A stretch of 64,000 bases of DNA from Myxococcus guangdongensis. GTDB lineage: Bacteria; Myxococcota; Myxococcia; Myxococcales; Myxococcaceae. Each line of letters starts with the position of its first letter. Positions within the stretch are counted from its first letter, which is position 1. The stretch spans positions 186,001-250,000 of the forward strand of contig NZ_JAJVKW010000004.1 of assembly GCF_024198255.1 (NCBI RefSeq), in the 5' to 3' direction. This document shows, in pieces, positions 23,207-32,858 of the stretch. Both the position numbers and the translations under genes were made by a program. Under the pieces are notes generated by a model. That model saw only the letters and a list, made by a program, of their open reading frames with translations, did not search any database and had not been told where the DNA came from.

Positions 23207-23367
23207 CCTTCGCCCCAGTGGCCGCCCACATCCGCGCACCTGCGCCAGTCGCGGCCGGGGCGTGTCCTCACGGGCGGGTGACAGTTCCCGGACATGGCGG
23301 TGTTCCAGTGGGTGGAGGGCGCGGCGGAAGCCTGGAGACGGGGCTTGTGGACCGCGCTGGAGGCTTC

Positions 23368-24183
23368 GTGAGCATGGCCCTGTGCACCCCTGACTGGCTG
23401 CTGGAGCGGATTGCCCTGGGCGAGCTGTCCCCGGACGCGCTCGCCGACGCTCGCGCCCGGCTGGAGCGCGAGCCCCACGGGACGGCCCGGCTGGCGCGAC
23501 TGGAGGCGGACTCGGCCCAGACGCTGGCCCGCCATCCCCCCGAGGGCTTCGCCCGGGAAGTCGGCCGCCGCGCCCGCACCGCGGACGTCCAGCGCGAGCA
23601 CGCGGCGCGCTACCCGGGCTGGCATGGGCTGTCCATGGGGCTGCCCGTGGCGGCGTCGCTGGTGCTGCTCATGCTGTCGGCCCAGCCTGAACGGGGGGGC
23701 GAGCCCCCGGCGCTGATGCCCGCGAGGGTGGAGCTGCTGGAGGAGACGGTCGGCATCAAGGGCGACGCGCGGCTCCTGGTGTACCGGCAGCACGACGGCG
23801 CCACGGAGCTGCTCCCGGACCGCACGCGCGCCCGGCGTGGGGACCTGCTCCAGCTGAGCTACCTCGCCGGTGGGCGGCGCTACGGGACGGTGGTGTCCGT
23901 GGATGGCCGGGGCGCGGTGACGCTGCACCACCCCACCACGCTGGTGGGGAGCACCCGGCTCCAGAAGGGGGACGCGGTGTCGCTCGCGCACTCGTACGAG
24001 CTCGACGACGCCCCCGCCTTCGAGCGCTTCTTCTTCGTCACCTCGGATTCACCCATCGATGTGGGCCTCGTGCTGGAGTCCGCGCGGCAGCTCGCACGTC
24101 AGCCCACCGAGGCGAGCACCCGGCCGCTCCCGCTTCCGGGTACCCTGGCCCAGACATCCTTCACGTTGGAGAAGGTGCCGTGA
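23368..24183 (+). CDS. ActD-like/anti-sigma-like protein with membrane helix
   Basis: 271 residues from GTG 23368 (VSMALCTPDWLLERIALGEL) with GGAGG four bases upstream; ATG 23374 is an alternative. The N-terminal region (LGELSPDALADARARLE) resembles anti-sigma or ActD-like proteins of myxobacteria. One membrane helix follows (WHGLSMGLPVAASLVLLMLS), then a beta-rich extracytoplasmic domain of the DUF4384 kind (LLQLSYLAGGRRYGTVVSVD). It overlaps the caspase-like gene by 1-3 bp at TGATG, so the two are co-translated and probably act together. The name follows convention for this neighbourhood; function is not established. Confidence 0.75.
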   Translation: MSMALCTPDWLLERIALGELSPDALADARARLEREPHGTARLARLEADSAQTLARHPPEGFAREVGRRARTADVQREHAARYPGWHGLSMGLPVAASLVLLMLSAQPERGGEPPALMPARVELLEETVGIKGDARLLVYRQHDGATELLPDRTRARRGDLLQLSYLAGGRRYGTVVSVDGRGAVTLHHPTTLVGSTRLQKGDAVSLAHSYELDDAPAFERFFFVTSDSPIDVGLVLESARQLARQPTEASTRPLPLPGTLAQTSFTLEKVP

Positions 24184-26423
24184 TGGCGCGGTCACTCCTG
24201 TTCCTGTCCCTGTTGCTTCCCACCCTGGCCACGGCGGCCCCTGCCGGTACCCCTTCCTCCAACCCTGTCGCCGTGCGCCGGTTCGCGCTGCTCGTGGGCG
24301 TCAACGACGGCGGCCCCGGCCGCGCGAAGCTGCGCTACGCCGTCACCGACGCGAACGCCTTCGGCCAGGTGCTCGAGGAGCTCGGCGGCGTGCAGCGGCA
24401 GGACCGGATGATGCTGCTCGAAGGCGACCGCAAGGCGCTGGAGAGCGCGCTGGCCCGCTTCAAGGCGATGGTCGCCGCGGGCAAGACGCCGGGCGGGCGC
24501 ACCGAGGCGCTCATCTACTACTCCGGCCACTCCGACGAGGAGGGGCTGCTTTTGCACCAGGACCGCTTCGGCTACCGCGAGCTGCGGCAGGCGCTGGAGC
24601 AGCTGCCCGCGGACGTGCGCATCGCCATCCTGGACTCGTGCGCCTCCGGCACGCTGGCGCGCTCGAAGGGCGGTGTGCGCCGTCCCGCGTTCCTGGTGGA
24701 CACGTCCACGGCCGTGCGGGGCCACGCCATCCTGACCTCCTCTTCCGAGGACGAGGTGTCGCAGGAGTCGGACCGCATCGGCGGCTCGTTCTTCACGCAC
24801 AACCTGGTGTCGGGGCTGCGCGGCGCGGCGGACGCCACGGGGGATGGCCGCGTCACGCTGCACGAGGCCTACCAGTTCGCCTTCCACGAGACGCTCGCGC
24901 GCACGGAGCGCACCCGCGCGGGCGCGCAGCATCCGGCCTATGACATCGAGCTGGCCGGCACGGGCGAGCTGGTGATGACGGACCTGCGCTCCACCTCCGC
25001 GGTGCTCGTCATGGACGAGAACGTGGAGGGGCGCCTGTTCATCCGCGACGAGCCCGGGCGCCTGGTGGTGGAGCTCAACAAGCTGGCGGGCCGCTCCACA
25101 GAACTGGGCCTGCAGCCGGGCCGCTACACGGTGACGCGCGAGTCGCGCGGCGCCAGCTCCCAGGCGGTGCTCACGGTGGGCGACGCCGGGCGCACCGTGC
25201 TGGCCCACACGGCCTTCGTGGCGATGCAGGGCGAGATGACGGCGATGCGCGGAGGCGGCGCGCCGATGGCCAGCGCGCAGGGGCCGATGGTCGAGCCCGT
25301 GGCGCGCCGAAACTACCGCTTCATCAACCTGGGCCTGGCCCCGAAGCTCCAGACGAACGACTTGTGGAGCGGCGAGGGGGAGATGGGCAACTCGCTCTCC
25401 GTCTCGCTGGGCGTGGCGACCATGGGACGGCTGGATGGCTTCGCGATGGCGCTGGGGGCGAACCTGAGCTCAGGCGAGCTCCACGGCGTGCAGACGGCCC
25501 TCGGCGGCAACGTGGTGCGCGACATCATGGAGGGCGCGCAGCTCTCCGTGGGCGGCAACTGGGTCAGTGGCAAGGCGGAGGGTCTGCAGGCCTCGGTGGG
25601 CCTCAACATGGCGAGCCAGGGTGGGCGCCTGGGTCAGCTCTCCGTGGGCGCCAACGTGTCGCGCGCGTCCCTGCAGGGGGTGCAGATGGCGGTGGGCAGC
25701 AGCTGGGTGAACGGCGACATGGACGGCTTCCAGGCCGCGGTGGGCCTGAGCTGGGTCTCCGGCGCGATGCGGGGCGTGCAGATGTCCGTGGGCACCAGCC
25801 GGGTCAGCTCCATCCAGGGTGCGCAGGTGTCGCTGCTCAACGTGGGGGGCGACGTGAGGGGCGCGCAGGTGGGCCTGGTCAACATCGCGGGGAAGATGAA
25901 CGGCCTGCAGCTGGGCATCATCAACGTGGCCAACAACCTGGAGTCCGGTGTGCCGGTGGGCCTGCTCAACATCGTGCGCAACGGCCAGTTCCACGTGGAG
26001 GCCTACGGCAACGACTTCAACTACGCCAACCTCGCGCTCAAGGTGGGCAGCCGCTACCTCTACACGACGCTGGTGGTGGGCATGGGCGCGGTGCCGGACC
26101 ACCGGGGCCCCAGCCACTGGACGACGGGCGTGGGCCTGGGCGGCCACGTGCCGCTGACCGAGCGCCTGTACTTCGACGTGGACGTGGTGTCGAACACCCT
26201 CCACGAGTGGGGCGGAGCGCTCGCGGACAACCGGATGCTGCACCAGGGGCGGCTGATGGTGGGCTACGCGTTCGCCCCGCGCTTCGCCGTCTTCGCGGGC
26301 CCGACGTTCAACGTCCTGCACGCCACCGACGGCGAGCCGGTGACGGCGCTCAGCCGGTTCTCCAAGTCGTCGGACCGCGACGTCCTGATGTGGACCGGTG
26401 TCCAGGCGGGTCTGCGTCTCTGA
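24183..26423 (+). CDS. Caspase-family protease fused to surface-repeat region
   Basis: 746 residues from ATG 24183 with a signal peptide (LLFLSLLLPTLATAAP). A peptidase C14 domain (about 35-250) carries the catalytic His (YYSGHSDEEG) and Cys (AILDSCASG). After a beta-rich linker comes a region of about ten 20-residue repeats with a recurring Gly-x-Gln plus hydrophobic-Gly pattern, such as GVQMAVGSSWVNGDMDGF and GAQVGLVNIAGKMNG, like LA_2272-type surface repeats, followed by an outer-membrane-like beta segment. A secreted or surface-anchored metacaspase-like enzyme is likely. It is coupled to the ActD-like gene. Cleavage specificity (Arg/Lys or Asp) cannot be judged. Confidence 0.88.
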   Translation: MARSLLFLSLLLPTLATAAPAGTPSSNPVAVRRFALLVGVNDGGPGRAKLRYAVTDANAFGQVLEELGGVQRQDRMMLLEGDRKALESALARFKAMVAAGKTPGGRTEALIYYSGHSDEEGLLLHQDRFGYRELRQALEQLPADVRIAILDSCASGTLARSKGGVRRPAFLVDTSTAVRGHAILTSSSEDEVSQESDRIGGSFFTHNLVSGLRGAADATGDGRVTLHEAYQFAFHETLARTERTRAGAQHPAYDIELAGTGELVMTDLRSTSAVLVMDENVEGRLFIRDEPGRLVVELNKLAGRSTELGLQPGRYTVTRESRGASSQAVLTVGDAGRTVLAHTAFVAMQGEMTAMRGGGAPMASAQGPMVEPVARRNYRFINLGLAPKLQTNDLWSGEGEMGNSLSVSLGVATMGRLDGFAMALGANLSSGELHGVQTALGGNVVRDIMEGAQLSVGGNWVSGKAEGLQASVGLNMASQGGRLGQLSVGANVSRASLQGVQMAVGSSWVNGDMDGFQAAVGLSWVSGAMRGVQMSVGTSRVSSIQGAQVSLLNVGGDVRGAQVGLVNIAGKMNGLQLGIINVANNLESGVPVGLLNIVRNGQFHVEAYGNDFNYANLALKVGSRYLYTTLVVGMGAVPDHRGPSHWTTGVGLGGHVPLTERLYFDVDVVSNTLHEWGGALADNRMLHQGRLMVGYAFAPRFAVFAGPTFNVLHATDGEPVTALSRFSKSSDRDVLMWTGVQAGLRL

Positions 26424-31129: not shown

Positions 31130-31684
31130 GTGAAGGGTACCGCCATCCTAGAGGAGCCCGGAACTCCAGCGCGCACCACCGTCGCGCTCGGGTTCGAGTC
31201 GCTCCTGGAGGCGGAGCAGGCCGGTTTGCTGCGCCTGGCCCGGCGGTTGGTCTGGGACGCGGAGGAGGCGAGGGACGTGGTGCAGGCAACCCTGGCTGAT
31301 GCCTACGAGAAGCGCCACGGCTTGAAGGACCCGAAGGCGGGGCCCGCGTGGCTGCGGCGCATCCTGGTGTCCCGCGCGATGAGCCACCTGCGCAGGCGGC
31401 GCGTGTGGAACGTGCTGCGTGAGGCGTTGGACGGGGGCACGCCCCTGGAGCTGTCACCGGAGGAGCGCTTCGTCGGCGCCGAGCGCTGGCGGGCCCTGGG
31501 CAGAGCGGTGCGTGCGCTCCCGTCGCAGCAGGCCACGGCCTTCAGCCTGCGCTACCTGGAGGGACTCGAGTTGGACGCTGTCGCGGAGGACATGGGCATC
31601 GAGCGGGGCACCGTCCGCATCCACCTGTATCGCGCGCTCAAGAAGCTCAAGGCCGAGCGGGCCCTCGAAGGAGAAACGCCATGA
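31130..31684 (+). CDS. ECF-type RNA polymerase sigma factor
   Basis: 184 residues from GTG 31130 with GAGGAGGT nine bases before. Region 2 is visible as LEAEQAGLLRLARRLVWDAE followed by EEARDVVQATLADAY, and region 4 as LPSQQATAFSLRYLEGLELD with DMGIERGTVRIHLYRALKKL as its helix-turn-helix. The gap between is short, as in ECF factors. It overlaps the downstream zinc-binding anti-sigma gene by 4 bp, the usual arrangement. The GNAT gene upstream is divergent. Confidence 0.94.
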   Translation: MKGTAILEEPGTPARTTVALGFESLLEAEQAGLLRLARRLVWDAEEARDVVQATLADAYEKRHGLKDPKAGPAWLRRILVSRAMSHLRRRRVWNVLREALDGGTPLELSPEERFVGAERWRALGRAVRALPSQQATAFSLRYLEGLELDAVAEDMGIERGTVRIHLYRALKKLKAERALEGETP

Positions 31685-32280
31685 GATGCCACGACGTGGC
31701 CCCCCTCCTCCTGGAGTGCTCGCCCCCTTGGACGCCCGACGTGCGTGCCCACCTGGAGGGCTGCGAGGAGTGCCGGACGCTCGCGGCCGTGCATGCCTCG
31801 GCGTCGCGGTTGCGGCTGCCGGTGACGCCGCCCCTGACGCCGGTGACGCATGAGGCCGTGCTGGGCGAGGTGCGCCGCCGCAAGGTGCGTCGCCGGGTCA
31901 TCGCGGGCGTGGTGGCGTCGTGCTGTGTCCTCGGCCTGACGTGGCTGACGCGGCCCGCGCCGCCGGTGCCCCACGTGTCGGAGGACGCGTACGTCCAGGA
32001 GCATGACACCGCGCCACGGCCCGAGCTGGAGCTGCGCCGCGCGGACACGGAGGACGAGGTGTCTCCGGAGGCCCTGGCGCAGGGGGCTCGCGCCTCGCTG
32101 ACCGACCTCTTCACGGAGGTCCGTGGCTACACGCGGCGCGACGCCGTGTACCGCGATGACCTCTACCGACCTTTCGGGGCGATGGCCGCCTGGCTTCGCC
32201 CCCCGGATTCCCGCGCGCTGGAAGCACCGCCGTTCCGTACGGCGATTCACCCCATCACTTACCAGGAGTCGATGCCATGA
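31681..32280 (+). CDS. Zinc-binding membrane anti-sigma factor
   Basis: 199 residues from ATG 31681. The N-terminal ZAS-type motif MRCHDVAPLLLE then HLEGCEEC provides the H-x3-C-x2-C zinc ligands. A single membrane helix (VIAGVVASCCVLGLTWL) follows, then an acidic extracytoplasmic tail. It should hold the adjacent ECF sigma factor and release it on an envelope signal. It overlaps both neighbours by 4 bp. Orthology to a named factor is not claimed. Confidence 0.9.
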   Translation: MRCHDVAPLLLECSPPWTPDVRAHLEGCEECRTLAAVHASASRLRLPVTPPLTPVTHEAVLGEVRRRKVRRRVIAGVVASCCVLGLTWLTRPAPPVPHVSEDAYVQEHDTAPRPELELRRADTEDEVSPEALAQGARASLTDLFTEVRGYTRRDAVYRDDLYRPFGAMAAWLRPPDSRALEAPPFRTAIHPITYQESMP

Positions 32281-32858
32281 AGCTTCGCATGTCCATGTGG
32301 TTGGCCGCGGCGGCGTTGAGCCCGCTGCTCGCGGCTTTGCCCGCACAGGCCCAACCCGAACCCGAGAACGTCGTCGTCCACCGCGCGGGCCCCGGAGCGT
32401 TGCACGTCATGGGGCCCGCGGACAGCGCGCTCCCGCTGGGCCCGCTCCCTCCCGCCGCGCACGGCATCCCTCCGCAGGTGGTGGAGAAGCTGGGCATCCC
32501 CCGGGAGGTGGCCAAGCAGATTCAAGAGCTGACGTTCGACGCGAACGAGGCCGTCATCCCGCTGGAGGCGGACCTCAAGCGCGCGCAGCTCCAGCTCGAG
32601 CGCCAGCTGCGCGCGGACTCCACCGATGAGAACGCGGTGCTCAAGCAGGTGGAGGAGGTGGGCCGCGCGGAGACGGCGGTGCGCAAGAACCGTCTGTCGT
32701 TGATGGTCCGCATCAAGCGACTGTTGGGTCCCGAGCTGTGGCGCAAGGTGGAGGCGGAGATGGGCACGATGCGCATCCAGAAGCGCATCGAGATCCGCAA
32801 GGGCATCCCGGACGAGGACGGCCCCGGTCCCGGCGGTCCTGGCCCGCGCAAGCCGTAG
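32277..32858 (+). CDS. Secreted CpxP/Spy-like helical protein
   Basis: 193 residues from ATG 32277 with a signal peptide (LAAAALSPLLAALPAQA). The mature part is a charged helical hairpin (IPREVAKQIQELTFDANEAV, then LKRAQLQLERQLRADSTDEN and VRKNRLSLMVRIKRLLG), resembling periplasmic heavy-metal-sensor/Spy-type proteins, and ends in a Gly/Pro-rich tail. It is the third gene of the sigma/anti-sigma operon, so it is probably the stress-induced or stress-sensing periplasmic component. The family assignment is by shape, not by a decisive motif. Confidence 0.78.
   Translation: MKLRMSMWLAAAALSPLLAALPAQAQPEPENVVVHRAGPGALHVMGPADSALPLGPLPPAAHGIPPQVVEKLGIPREVAKQIQELTFDANEAVIPLEADLKRAQLQLERQLRADSTDENAVLKQVEEVGRAETAVRKNRLSLMVRIKRLLGPELWRKVEAEMGTMRIQKRIEIRKGIPDEDGPGPGGPGPRKP

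Follow-up and report, generated by a model that had tools for sequence, protein, structure and literature searches.

A secreted caspase and its membrane partner in Myxococcus guangdongensis: a candidate protease/anti-sigma pair for a proposed envelope sigma pathway split between two loci

The window analyzed here is a 64,000-nucleotide stretch of the Myxococcus guangdongensis genome (assembly GCF_024198255.1, contig NZ_JAJVKW010000004.1, positions 186,001 to 250,000 of the forward strand) that contains a two-gene operon, in which a gene for an ActD-like membrane protein precedes one for a secreted caspase. Comparative evidence suggests that this caspase is a switch that would cut a membrane-bound brake and thereby turn on cell-surface genes. 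We give a probability of roughly 60% to the reading that the pair supplies the protease arm and the anti-sigma arm of a pathway for an extracytoplasmic function (ECF) sigma factor that is gated by the caspase, and that the gene for this sigma factor would lie elsewhere on the chromosome. On this reading the caspase is the candidate site-1 protease in an envelope sigma pathway split between two loci, and cleavage of the anti-sigma factor is a step that we infer. The features on which the argument turns are the following, in window coordinates.

23278 to 23305, plus strand: promoter-like element GTGACAG-N14-GGTGTTC ahead of the ActD-like/caspase operon, exact match
23374 to 24183, plus strand: ActD-like gene, 269 amino acids, ECF anti-sigma factor by homology (profile relatives; AlphaFold2 model with a mean predicted local distance difference test score, pLDDT, of 86.7)
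23626 to 23682, plus strand: transmembrane helix of the ActD-like protein, residues 85-103 (AlphaFold2 helix, hydropathy)
23758 to 23763, plus strand: K129-G130 of the ActD-like protein, candidate caspase cut site (Lys or Arg in 59/59, Gly in 59/59)
24183 to 26423, plus strand: caspase with beta-solenoid repeats and a barrel-like end, 746 amino acids, secreted by a signal peptide (translation, Pfam, NCBIfam, AlphaFold2, Foldseek, VIA-align)

Membership of the window protein in peptidase family C14, the caspase fold, was confirmed by Pfam, by fold and by the catalytic dyad. A first-pass annotation, made from the sequence alone, had described a signal peptide, a C14 domain, surface-type repeats and a barrel-like end in one chain, and translation, Pfam, NCBIfam and AlphaFold2 agree with it. 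The open reading frame at 24183-26423 (plus strand) translates without a stop into 746 amino acids, of which residues 32-222 match Pfam Peptidase_C14 (PF00656; E 1.2e-11, 45.2 bits against a gathering threshold of 21.4). Structure prediction, proposed at the time as a check on the N-terminus, recovers the C14 fold: caspases, metacaspases or MALT1 make up all 50 Foldseek matches listed for the AlphaFold2 model (best E 9.6e-05), and VIA-align gives the caspase fold a Z of about 17-18 over residues 28-260, with about 175-205 residues aligned. The His/Cys motif, also described as intact, is kept as H116 and C153 in 74/74 relatives (alignment of the set at E<1e-40). Searched by itself against the sequences of the PDB, the caspase domain had no match at E 1, and the family profile reached metacaspase-1 at 1.5e-05; PADLOC labels the protein 'caspase' (1.3e-05), which was taken as a fold-level statement only. 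Across the caspase part the model varies in confidence, pLDDT being about 71-90 at residues 31-150 and mostly below 60 at 151-270. The N-terminus, MARSLLFLSLLLPTLATAAP, is a Sec-type signal peptide as judged by eye, and a comparable hydrophobic N-terminus occurs in most of the listed family members; since it carries a signal peptide, the caspase should leave the cytoplasm. Its parts up to the repeats are as follows.

24183 to 24239, plus strand: signal peptide, about residues 1-19 (sequence, by eye)
24270 to 24962, plus strand: caspase (C14) domain, about residues 30-260 (Pfam, Foldseek/VIA-align, dyad in 74/74)
24528 to 24530 and 24639 to 24641, plus strand: catalytic codons of His116 and Cys153 (alignment of relatives)
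24666 to 24671, plus strand: K162-G163 shortly past the catalytic Cys, candidate self-processing site (Lys/Arg-Gly in DxC relatives)
24993 to 25217, plus strand: beta-rich connector domain, about residues 271-345 (AlphaFold2 strands)

The caspase had been described as translationally coupled to an ActD-like membrane protein. The two genes do overlap, with one base common to the upstream stop codon and the caspase ATG, and the partner has a single transmembrane helix; the name 'ActD-like' could be tied to no family, and the relatives point to an anti-sigma factor. AlphaFold2 and hydropathy give the ActD-like protein the layout of a membrane-type anti-sigma factor, with a helical cytosolic part, the transmembrane helix at 85-103, a disordered linker at 104-127 and an outer beta domain at 133-267. 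It matched no Pfam family at E 1, its NCBIfam search gave only a weak anti-sigmaE match (E 0.028), and Foldseek found nothing for its model at E 0.001. Its label as an ECF anti-sigma factor is one by homology to sigma-linked relatives: most relatives directly follow ECF sigma genes (three sigma proteins were scanned and match sigma region 2 and region 4), 5/24 match zf-HC2 and 6/24 match DUF4384. The zinc-finger HCC residues are present in 20/24 divergent relatives and lost in the ActD-like lineage; many anti-sigma factors lack zinc.

The loss of the zinc finger bears on a reading in which the caspase would control the anti-sigma factor by binding instead of cutting, or in which the window anti-sigma would be a decoy without a sigma factor of its own. 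No ECF sigma gene adjoins the ActD-like gene in 27/27 genomes of the genus (Myxococcus/Pyxidicoccus), although one is present at 46/59 related loci, and the cytosolic part of the window protein is somewhat less conserved than the periplasmic part (68% versus 75% identity; 72% versus 70% in a sister copy beside dnaN, described below). However, the cytosolic part remains under constraint (median dN 0.27 and dS 0.58, rough estimates by NG86 at high G+C), and the intact catalytic dyad favors proteolysis, so that we regard binding or a decoy as very improbable.

To place the pair in its family, C14 genes were compared within the M. guangdongensis genome and across the phylum. Ten C14 proteins were detected in the genome (nine by Pfam and one further by similarity), and eight of them are encoded by the third gene of a sigma/anti-sigma/caspase operon, or triad; the window copy lacks the sigma gene and a copy on contig C2 lacks both. 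The phylum sample consisted of 80 stretches around C14 genes, hand-picked for spread among the matches listed and hence not random, and a further 40 stretches were chosen around relatives of P0001. Across all fetched stretches, 85 caspases match the triad model at E<1e-15 and 74 at E<1e-40. A one-helix partner (defined as directly upstream, on the same strand, 150-330 amino acids long and with one strong hydrophobic helix) accompanies 59 of the 85, which are also 59 of the 74, and the sigma gene comes next in 46 of these 59. Genes were called with our own codon-composition caller, and some starts are wrong (that of the window caspase is 90 bases late). The pair itself is kept in 27/27 genus genomes, and with the 59 fetched loci this bears out the expectation that the two genes are conserved neighbors.

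Sigma factor, anti-sigma factor and caspase are inherited together. Among 20 divergent triads the Mantel correlation is 0.84 for caspase and anti-sigma and 0.83 for caspase and sigma (0/5000 permutations each), and 0.71 for anti-sigma and sigma. The corresponding values for the eight triads of the M. guangdongensis genome are 0.87 (0/5000 permutations), 0.82 (10/5000) and 0.72; because these triads co-vary inside one genome, species history cannot be the cause. Of 11 full-length anti-sigmas of the triad type in this genome, nine directly precede a caspase, and the other two sit in operons that have apparently lost theirs. One of these (L311, at C4:535008) consists of sigma and anti-sigma genes, the latter with Arg-Gly and sharing 58% identity with its counterpart in the C7 triad, followed by a lipoprotein gene and no caspase, and is apparently a second case of caspase loss.

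Several observations stand beside this comparison. The triad recurs, with the same tail, in metagenome-assembled genomes (MAGs) labelled Latescibacterota and Gemmatimonadota (36-37% identity), and very similar triads or parts of them were found in MAGs with these labels at L289-L293, L297 and L299; either recent transfer or inconsistent naming of the MAGs would account for them. Two records titled Comamonas sp. KCTC 72670 (BNCN01; L271 and L284) carry clearly Myxococcus-like genes and are probably mislabelled. The window itself holds, at 31130-32858, a separate group of an ECF sigma gene (by Pfam), an anti-sigma-like protein that shows HxxxCxxC by eye and matched nothing in Pfam at 0.001, and a protein that looks secreted.

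The most conserved site of the anti-sigma family, as the alignments have it, is a Lys/Arg-Gly pair in the linker just outside the membrane. Lys-Gly (56) or Arg-Gly (3) occupies a single alignment column between the transmembrane helix and the outer domain in 59/59 anti-sigmas. In the 24 divergent ones (<45% identity) the Gly is kept in 24/24 and the Lys/Arg in 24/24, versus 20/24 for the zinc ligands, and a second alignment likewise ranks this column top. In the window protein, AlphaFold2 places K129-G130 at the border between the disordered linker and the folded domain. Since shuffled linkers hold Lys/Arg-Gly somewhere in about 48% of cases, it is the fixed position that counts and not mere presence. 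Among control anti-sigma-like proteins, 4/9 of a first set and 6/16 of a second have any such pair in that stretch. The first control started from 19 loci with 15 genes, six of them without a helix; the nine counted include some possibly wrong frames and one protein with only three residues past the helix. The second comprised 21 rows, of which 18 were counted and seven had the pair, and removal of L390 and of one L392/L401 duplicate gave 6/16. L390 is followed by a divergent caspase (triad model E 2.9e-47); genome G141 was caspase-free by Pfam yet a caspase was found, so that absence by Pfam is not proof. L392 (G159:C158) is a fusion of 500 amino acids that joins an ECF sigma factor to an anti-sigma with a related outer domain; no Lys/Arg-Gly occurs in the 35 residues after its transmembrane helix, and its genome has no Pfam C14 match.

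Metacaspases (PMC3501461) and orthocaspases (PMC6426788) cleave after Lys/Arg, so the pair fits as P1-P1' and, on the strength of the alignments, is a candidate caspase cut site. The caspases show a comparable pair of their own. Within 20 residues from the Cys onward, Lys/Arg-Gly occurs in 57/57 DxC relatives (first pair Lys-Gly in 52, Arg-Gly in 5), and in the window protein this is K162-G163, in a region of low AlphaFold2 confidence (residues 154-184 below 50, likewise much of 187-271). The residue concerned in the motif before the Cys, DSC, is D151, which we presume from a general rule to suit a basic P1 pocket; Ala replaces it in 17/74 relatives, and in these the pair after the Cys is not present in the same form. 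In one subtype (L068 and L069, and L390 by eye) Arg-Gly stands at the aligned place in both partners, and at L064 Arg-Gly is found in the anti-sigma, with both Arg-Gly and Lys-Gly in the loop of the caspase.

The missing sigma gene points to a second locus. At the window locus the sigma gene is absent in 27/27 genus genomes (L013-L034 and L037-L040 are the other 26), sigma-profile matches there being E 0.13 or worse, and it is likewise absent at L035 and L036 of another genus. At L090, with a GNAT gene upstream and a TPR gene downstream as in the window, and at L089, with the TPR gene downstream, a sigma gene lies between the promoter-like element and the anti-sigma gene. A sister locus in 26/27 genus genomes encodes a sigma factor (90-99% identical), an anti-sigma factor and a short remnant of the barrel end, with a caspase match in 0/26 genomes; the remnant has a signal peptide in the 7/26 genomes inspected. 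This locus adjoins dnaN in the M. guangdongensis genome (L065; DNA polymerase III beta by Pfam), the stretches fetched from the other 25 genomes being too short to show dnaN, and in another genus (L092) an entire triad lies beside dnaN. Judging from these gene contents, each locus has kept what the other lost, the window being without the sigma factor and the dnaN locus without the caspase. At L041/L081 (G041:C301) only a 35-residue sigma stretch is recognizable upstream of the anti-sigma gene, perhaps a decaying gene or an assembly fault.

The two loci share a promoter-like element, which was found in separately aligned upstream regions of the window and dnaN operons. It lies 37-75 bases before the aligned ActD-like start in 27/27 genomes (26 exact, the rest with at most one mismatch) and 42-47 bases before the dnaN-locus sigma gene in 26/26 (14 exact, 12 with one mismatch), and within the window 23278-23305 is the sole site at up to two mismatches. 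The exact element has 112 sites in the 27 genomes and its reversed control none; since it was derived from these two operons, 40 of the 112 (26 plus 14) are those loci themselves, leaving 72 others. All 29 exact sites that lie in fetched loci fall outside called genes, as do 14 of the 15 sites in the M. guangdongensis genome (five exact, ten with one mismatch). There the element lies before the operons of the window, of the dnaN-locus sigma and of C2, before a repeat-barrel gene that stands alone on C24, and before genes for two DUF2807 lipoproteins, two beta-lactamase-family proteins and others. All four repeat-barrel loci of the genome, themselves found by similarity, thus have the element; two of the four played no part in defining it.

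Across the phylum, a copy with up to two mismatches lies within 300 bases upstream of 26 of the 29 pairs with a repeat-barrel tail (of 59 pairs). Of the remaining three, two have an exact copy one gene further up and the third has a one-mismatch copy inside a called gene. The best sites before the 30 pairs with other tails have 4-6 mismatches in 28, three in one, and two at a distance of 249 bases in one. By these tail-by-tail counts the element follows the repeat-barrel subfamily, whether sigma linked (16) or not (13). C2-type loci L280-L286 and L300 appear without it because their 5-kb flank stops before exbB; at L059 and L091, where the flank reaches exbB, it is present. L059, the C2 copy in the M. 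guangdongensis genome (C2:940000-955000), has the element followed by an operon of exbB, exbD, tonB, a TonB-dependent receptor bearing its own TonB_C domain, a lipoprotein and a caspase with repeats, with no sigma or anti-sigma neighbor. L093 (G052:C480) has three copies, one before a sigma operon and two before repeat-barrel/barrel genes.

These neighbors bear on the role that the first-pass annotation had proposed. Its interpretation is supported in part, and the operon's company lends no support to a metacaspase tethered at the surface for killing prey or for lysing siblings during development. Such a role would suit a secreted protease that carries surface-type repeats and comes from a genus of predators with a developmental cycle, and for M. 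xanthus metacaspases have been suggested as possible agents of developmental lysis (PMC3501461). Yet the partner and the operon type are regulatory, most of the element-linked genes examined concern the envelope, and the same triad and tail occur in the MAGs labelled Latescibacterota and Gemmatimonadota. Dedicated lytic families of Pfam were found in 0/12 proteins of element-linked and related operons, a scan that did not cover every downstream gene; two of the 12 belong to the beta-lactamase family PF00144, which includes cell-wall enzymes. Because eight of ten caspases share the operon setting, the partner is an anti-sigma by homology and the element marks envelope genes, a regulatory role is favored over killing, and we consider killing very improbable.

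The main rival to a caspase-gated pathway is that the caspase is merely an output of the regulon, an effector that would be expressed together with the anti-sigma and break down other proteins at the surface, whether envelope or foreign, with the Lys-Gly pair as a hinge or the site of another protease. The C2-locus caspase lies in an exbB-exbD-tonB-receptor operon with neither sigma nor anti-sigma gene beside it, Lys-Gly persists where the caspase is gone, and co-expression alone could explain the shared element. What an effector leaves unexplained is that co-variation is tightest between anti-sigma and caspase, that hardly any full-length anti-sigma of this type occurs outside caspase operons in the M. 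guangdongensis genome, and that the linker pair ranks top in conservation. The outer domain of L392, from a genome without a Pfam C14 match and without the pair, also speaks against an effector, although it is one divergent example and a caspase in another genome of the set escaped Pfam. On balance we hold this rival to be rather unlikely.

Several observations nevertheless weigh against a caspase-gated pathway. The pair is kept where the operon has no caspase, in 26/26 dnaN-locus anti-sigmas and in L311, and L417, a weak anti-sigma-like match without a caspase beside it, also has Lys-Gly; the role of the pair could be a structural one, or another protease could use it. In 17/74 caspases, whose anti-sigmas keep Lys-Gly, Ala replaces the Asp presumed to line a basic S1 pocket. 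A partner directly upstream is lacking for 26/85 triad-type caspases, in some cases owing to contig ends or missed gene calls and in others genuinely: a sigma gene is called within three genes in seven (L172, L173, L174, L193, L199, L204 and L232, that of L204 being on the other strand), five have no gene called upstream, and the remainder have other neighbors. At up to two mismatches the M. guangdongensis genome has 101 element sites versus 52 for the control, about twice as many, so two-mismatch sites are largely chance. That the dnaN-locus sigma factor would read the element is deduced from position, and genus genome G057, a fragmented assembly (820 contigs), shows no dnaN-locus sigma yet has six exact element sites. 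The whole-protein predicted template modelling score (pTM) of the caspase is 0.43, residues 151-270 being poorly modelled, and the barrel and the membrane placement of the tail are predictions only.

The tail would be the sensory part of the pathway, and it comprises two further features.

25347 to 25982, plus strand: beta-solenoid repeats, residues 389-600 (LA_2272 repeat, VIA-align, 16/14 period)
25983 to 26420, plus strand: barrel-like end, residues 601-746, eight strands (AlphaFold2)

Repeats had been predicted with a length of about 20 residues; the repeats themselves are borne out (NCBIfam LA_2272_repeat, NF047436, 31.4 bits against a cut-off of 25), but their spacing is 16 residues (435, 451, 467, 499, 515, 531) and then 14 (546, 560, 574). 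AlphaFold2 models seven short strand pairs at 402-509 and longer strands up to 586, with pLDDT of 90-94 to residue 570, and VIA-align superposes the solenoid on beta-helical 3p4g (Z 19.2, root-mean-square deviation 1.9, 205 aligned). Tandem Repeats Finder found no tandem repeat at the DNA level, the repeats being seen in the protein only. For the barrel-like end no known barrel was matched in the VIA-align list, which caspases and one beta-helix filled, and the VC2662 family (NF047437) was missed at 30.9 versus 140 bits. Among 31 full-length relatives the chain ends in I (16), L (9), F (5) or M (1), so that most lack a classic aromatic end. Conservation is far higher in the caspase part than in the tail: against the 26 genus orthologues, mean identity is 0.90 over residues 30-270, versus 0.61 in the repeats and likewise 0.61 in the barrel-like end. 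In plasmid and phage collections P0001 found only tail-like or caspase-like pieces, in seven plasmid and two phage records, and a triad caspase searched against the plasmid collection had no match.

The simplest account would run as follows. The dnaN-locus sigma factor would read the shared element and so drive the window operon in trans, and it would be tethered at the inner membrane by the ActD-like proteins. An envelope signal might be sensed through the solenoid/barrel tail, upon which the caspase, perhaps self-processed near K162-G163, would cut the anti-sigma after K129 just outside the membrane, and a site-2 protease would then free the sigma factor. Once free, this factor would induce itself, both anti-sigmas and the caspase genes, along with other repeat-barrel proteins, the TonB/ExbBD receptor operon and surface lipoproteins.

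In a variant that we consider unlikely, the protease would be its own sensor client. The tail, once assembled in the outer membrane, would park the caspase away from the inner-membrane anti-sigma, and failed assembly or a pull on the tail (for which the C2 paralogue adjoining ExbB-ExbD-TonB can be cited) would bring it within reach. It would then cut at Lys/Arg-Gly, and the sigma factor would make more repeat-barrel and Ton proteins. Were this variant true, secreted bacterial caspases would be a general class of site-1 protease for ECF signalling, each paralogous triad having its own tail and promoter.

Bacterial caspases are usually discussed as death enzymes, and to our knowledge the natural substrates of most of them are unknown. 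The present family offers a candidate substrate, a candidate cut site at the level of the residue, a candidate regulon and a natural two-locus split. If the caspase-gated pathway exists, proteases of the caspase type would control transcription from across the bacterial envelope, much as Csx29 gates it in type III-E CRISPR, with several parallel versions in myxobacterial genomes (eight sigma triads here). Sigma-metacaspase operons as such are already known: in 2012, Asplund-Samuelsson et al. (PMC3501461) noted sigma-70/metacaspase operons for 4/5 M. xanthus metacaspases and also in Anaeromyxobacter, Haliangium, Sorangium, Ralstonia and Fibrobacter. The portions of that account drawn on here name no anti-sigma factor, Lys-Gly site, promoter or locus split, and the sigma factor here is at another locus. 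The linker Lys/Arg-Gly pair, the two-locus split and the shared promoter-like element are new. In the open-access literature searched, no paper linking a secreted caspase to anti-sigma cleavage was found, and the ECF re-classification may list such groups.

Among known systems, DegS is a periplasmic site-1 protease that cuts the one-helix anti-sigma RseA and frees the ECF factor sigmaE in envelope stress; it is an inner-membrane PDZ serine protease, whereas the window protein is a C14 caspase with a solenoid/barrel tail. FecA/FecR/FecI signalling likewise combines an outer-membrane sensor, a one-helix anti-sigma and an ECF sigma factor, and the likeness extends to the TonB-linked operon that shares the element here, but a FecA-type sensor is a TonB-dependent receptor and not a caspase. 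In the EACC1 and EACC2 systems, caspases with variable C-terminal domains stand beside a small transmembrane protein (EACC1) or an ECF sigma gene (EACC2) (PMC7159879, PMC8195603). The window caspase scores 62.3 bits against the EACC1-associated model (NF047832), below the cut-off of 140, and its partner is an anti-sigma by homology with a large periplasmic domain, unlike the small EACC1 protein; this partner was unmatched in Pfam at E 1, no EACC1 model having been searched by name. With LA_2272 surface-repeat proteins (NF047436) the window protein shares the repeat, here fused behind a caspase. In Craspase, the caspase-like (CHAT) protease Csx29 cuts the inhibitor Csx30 and relieves the ECF-like CASP-sigma (PMC10028731), but that system is an RNA-triggered type III-E CRISPR complex whose protease is CHAT and not C14, whose inhibitor is not of the membrane type and which has no outer-membrane tail. 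By analogy, the proposed pathway would work like DegS/RseA/sigmaE and like Csx29/Csx30/CASP-sigma while being a member of neither.

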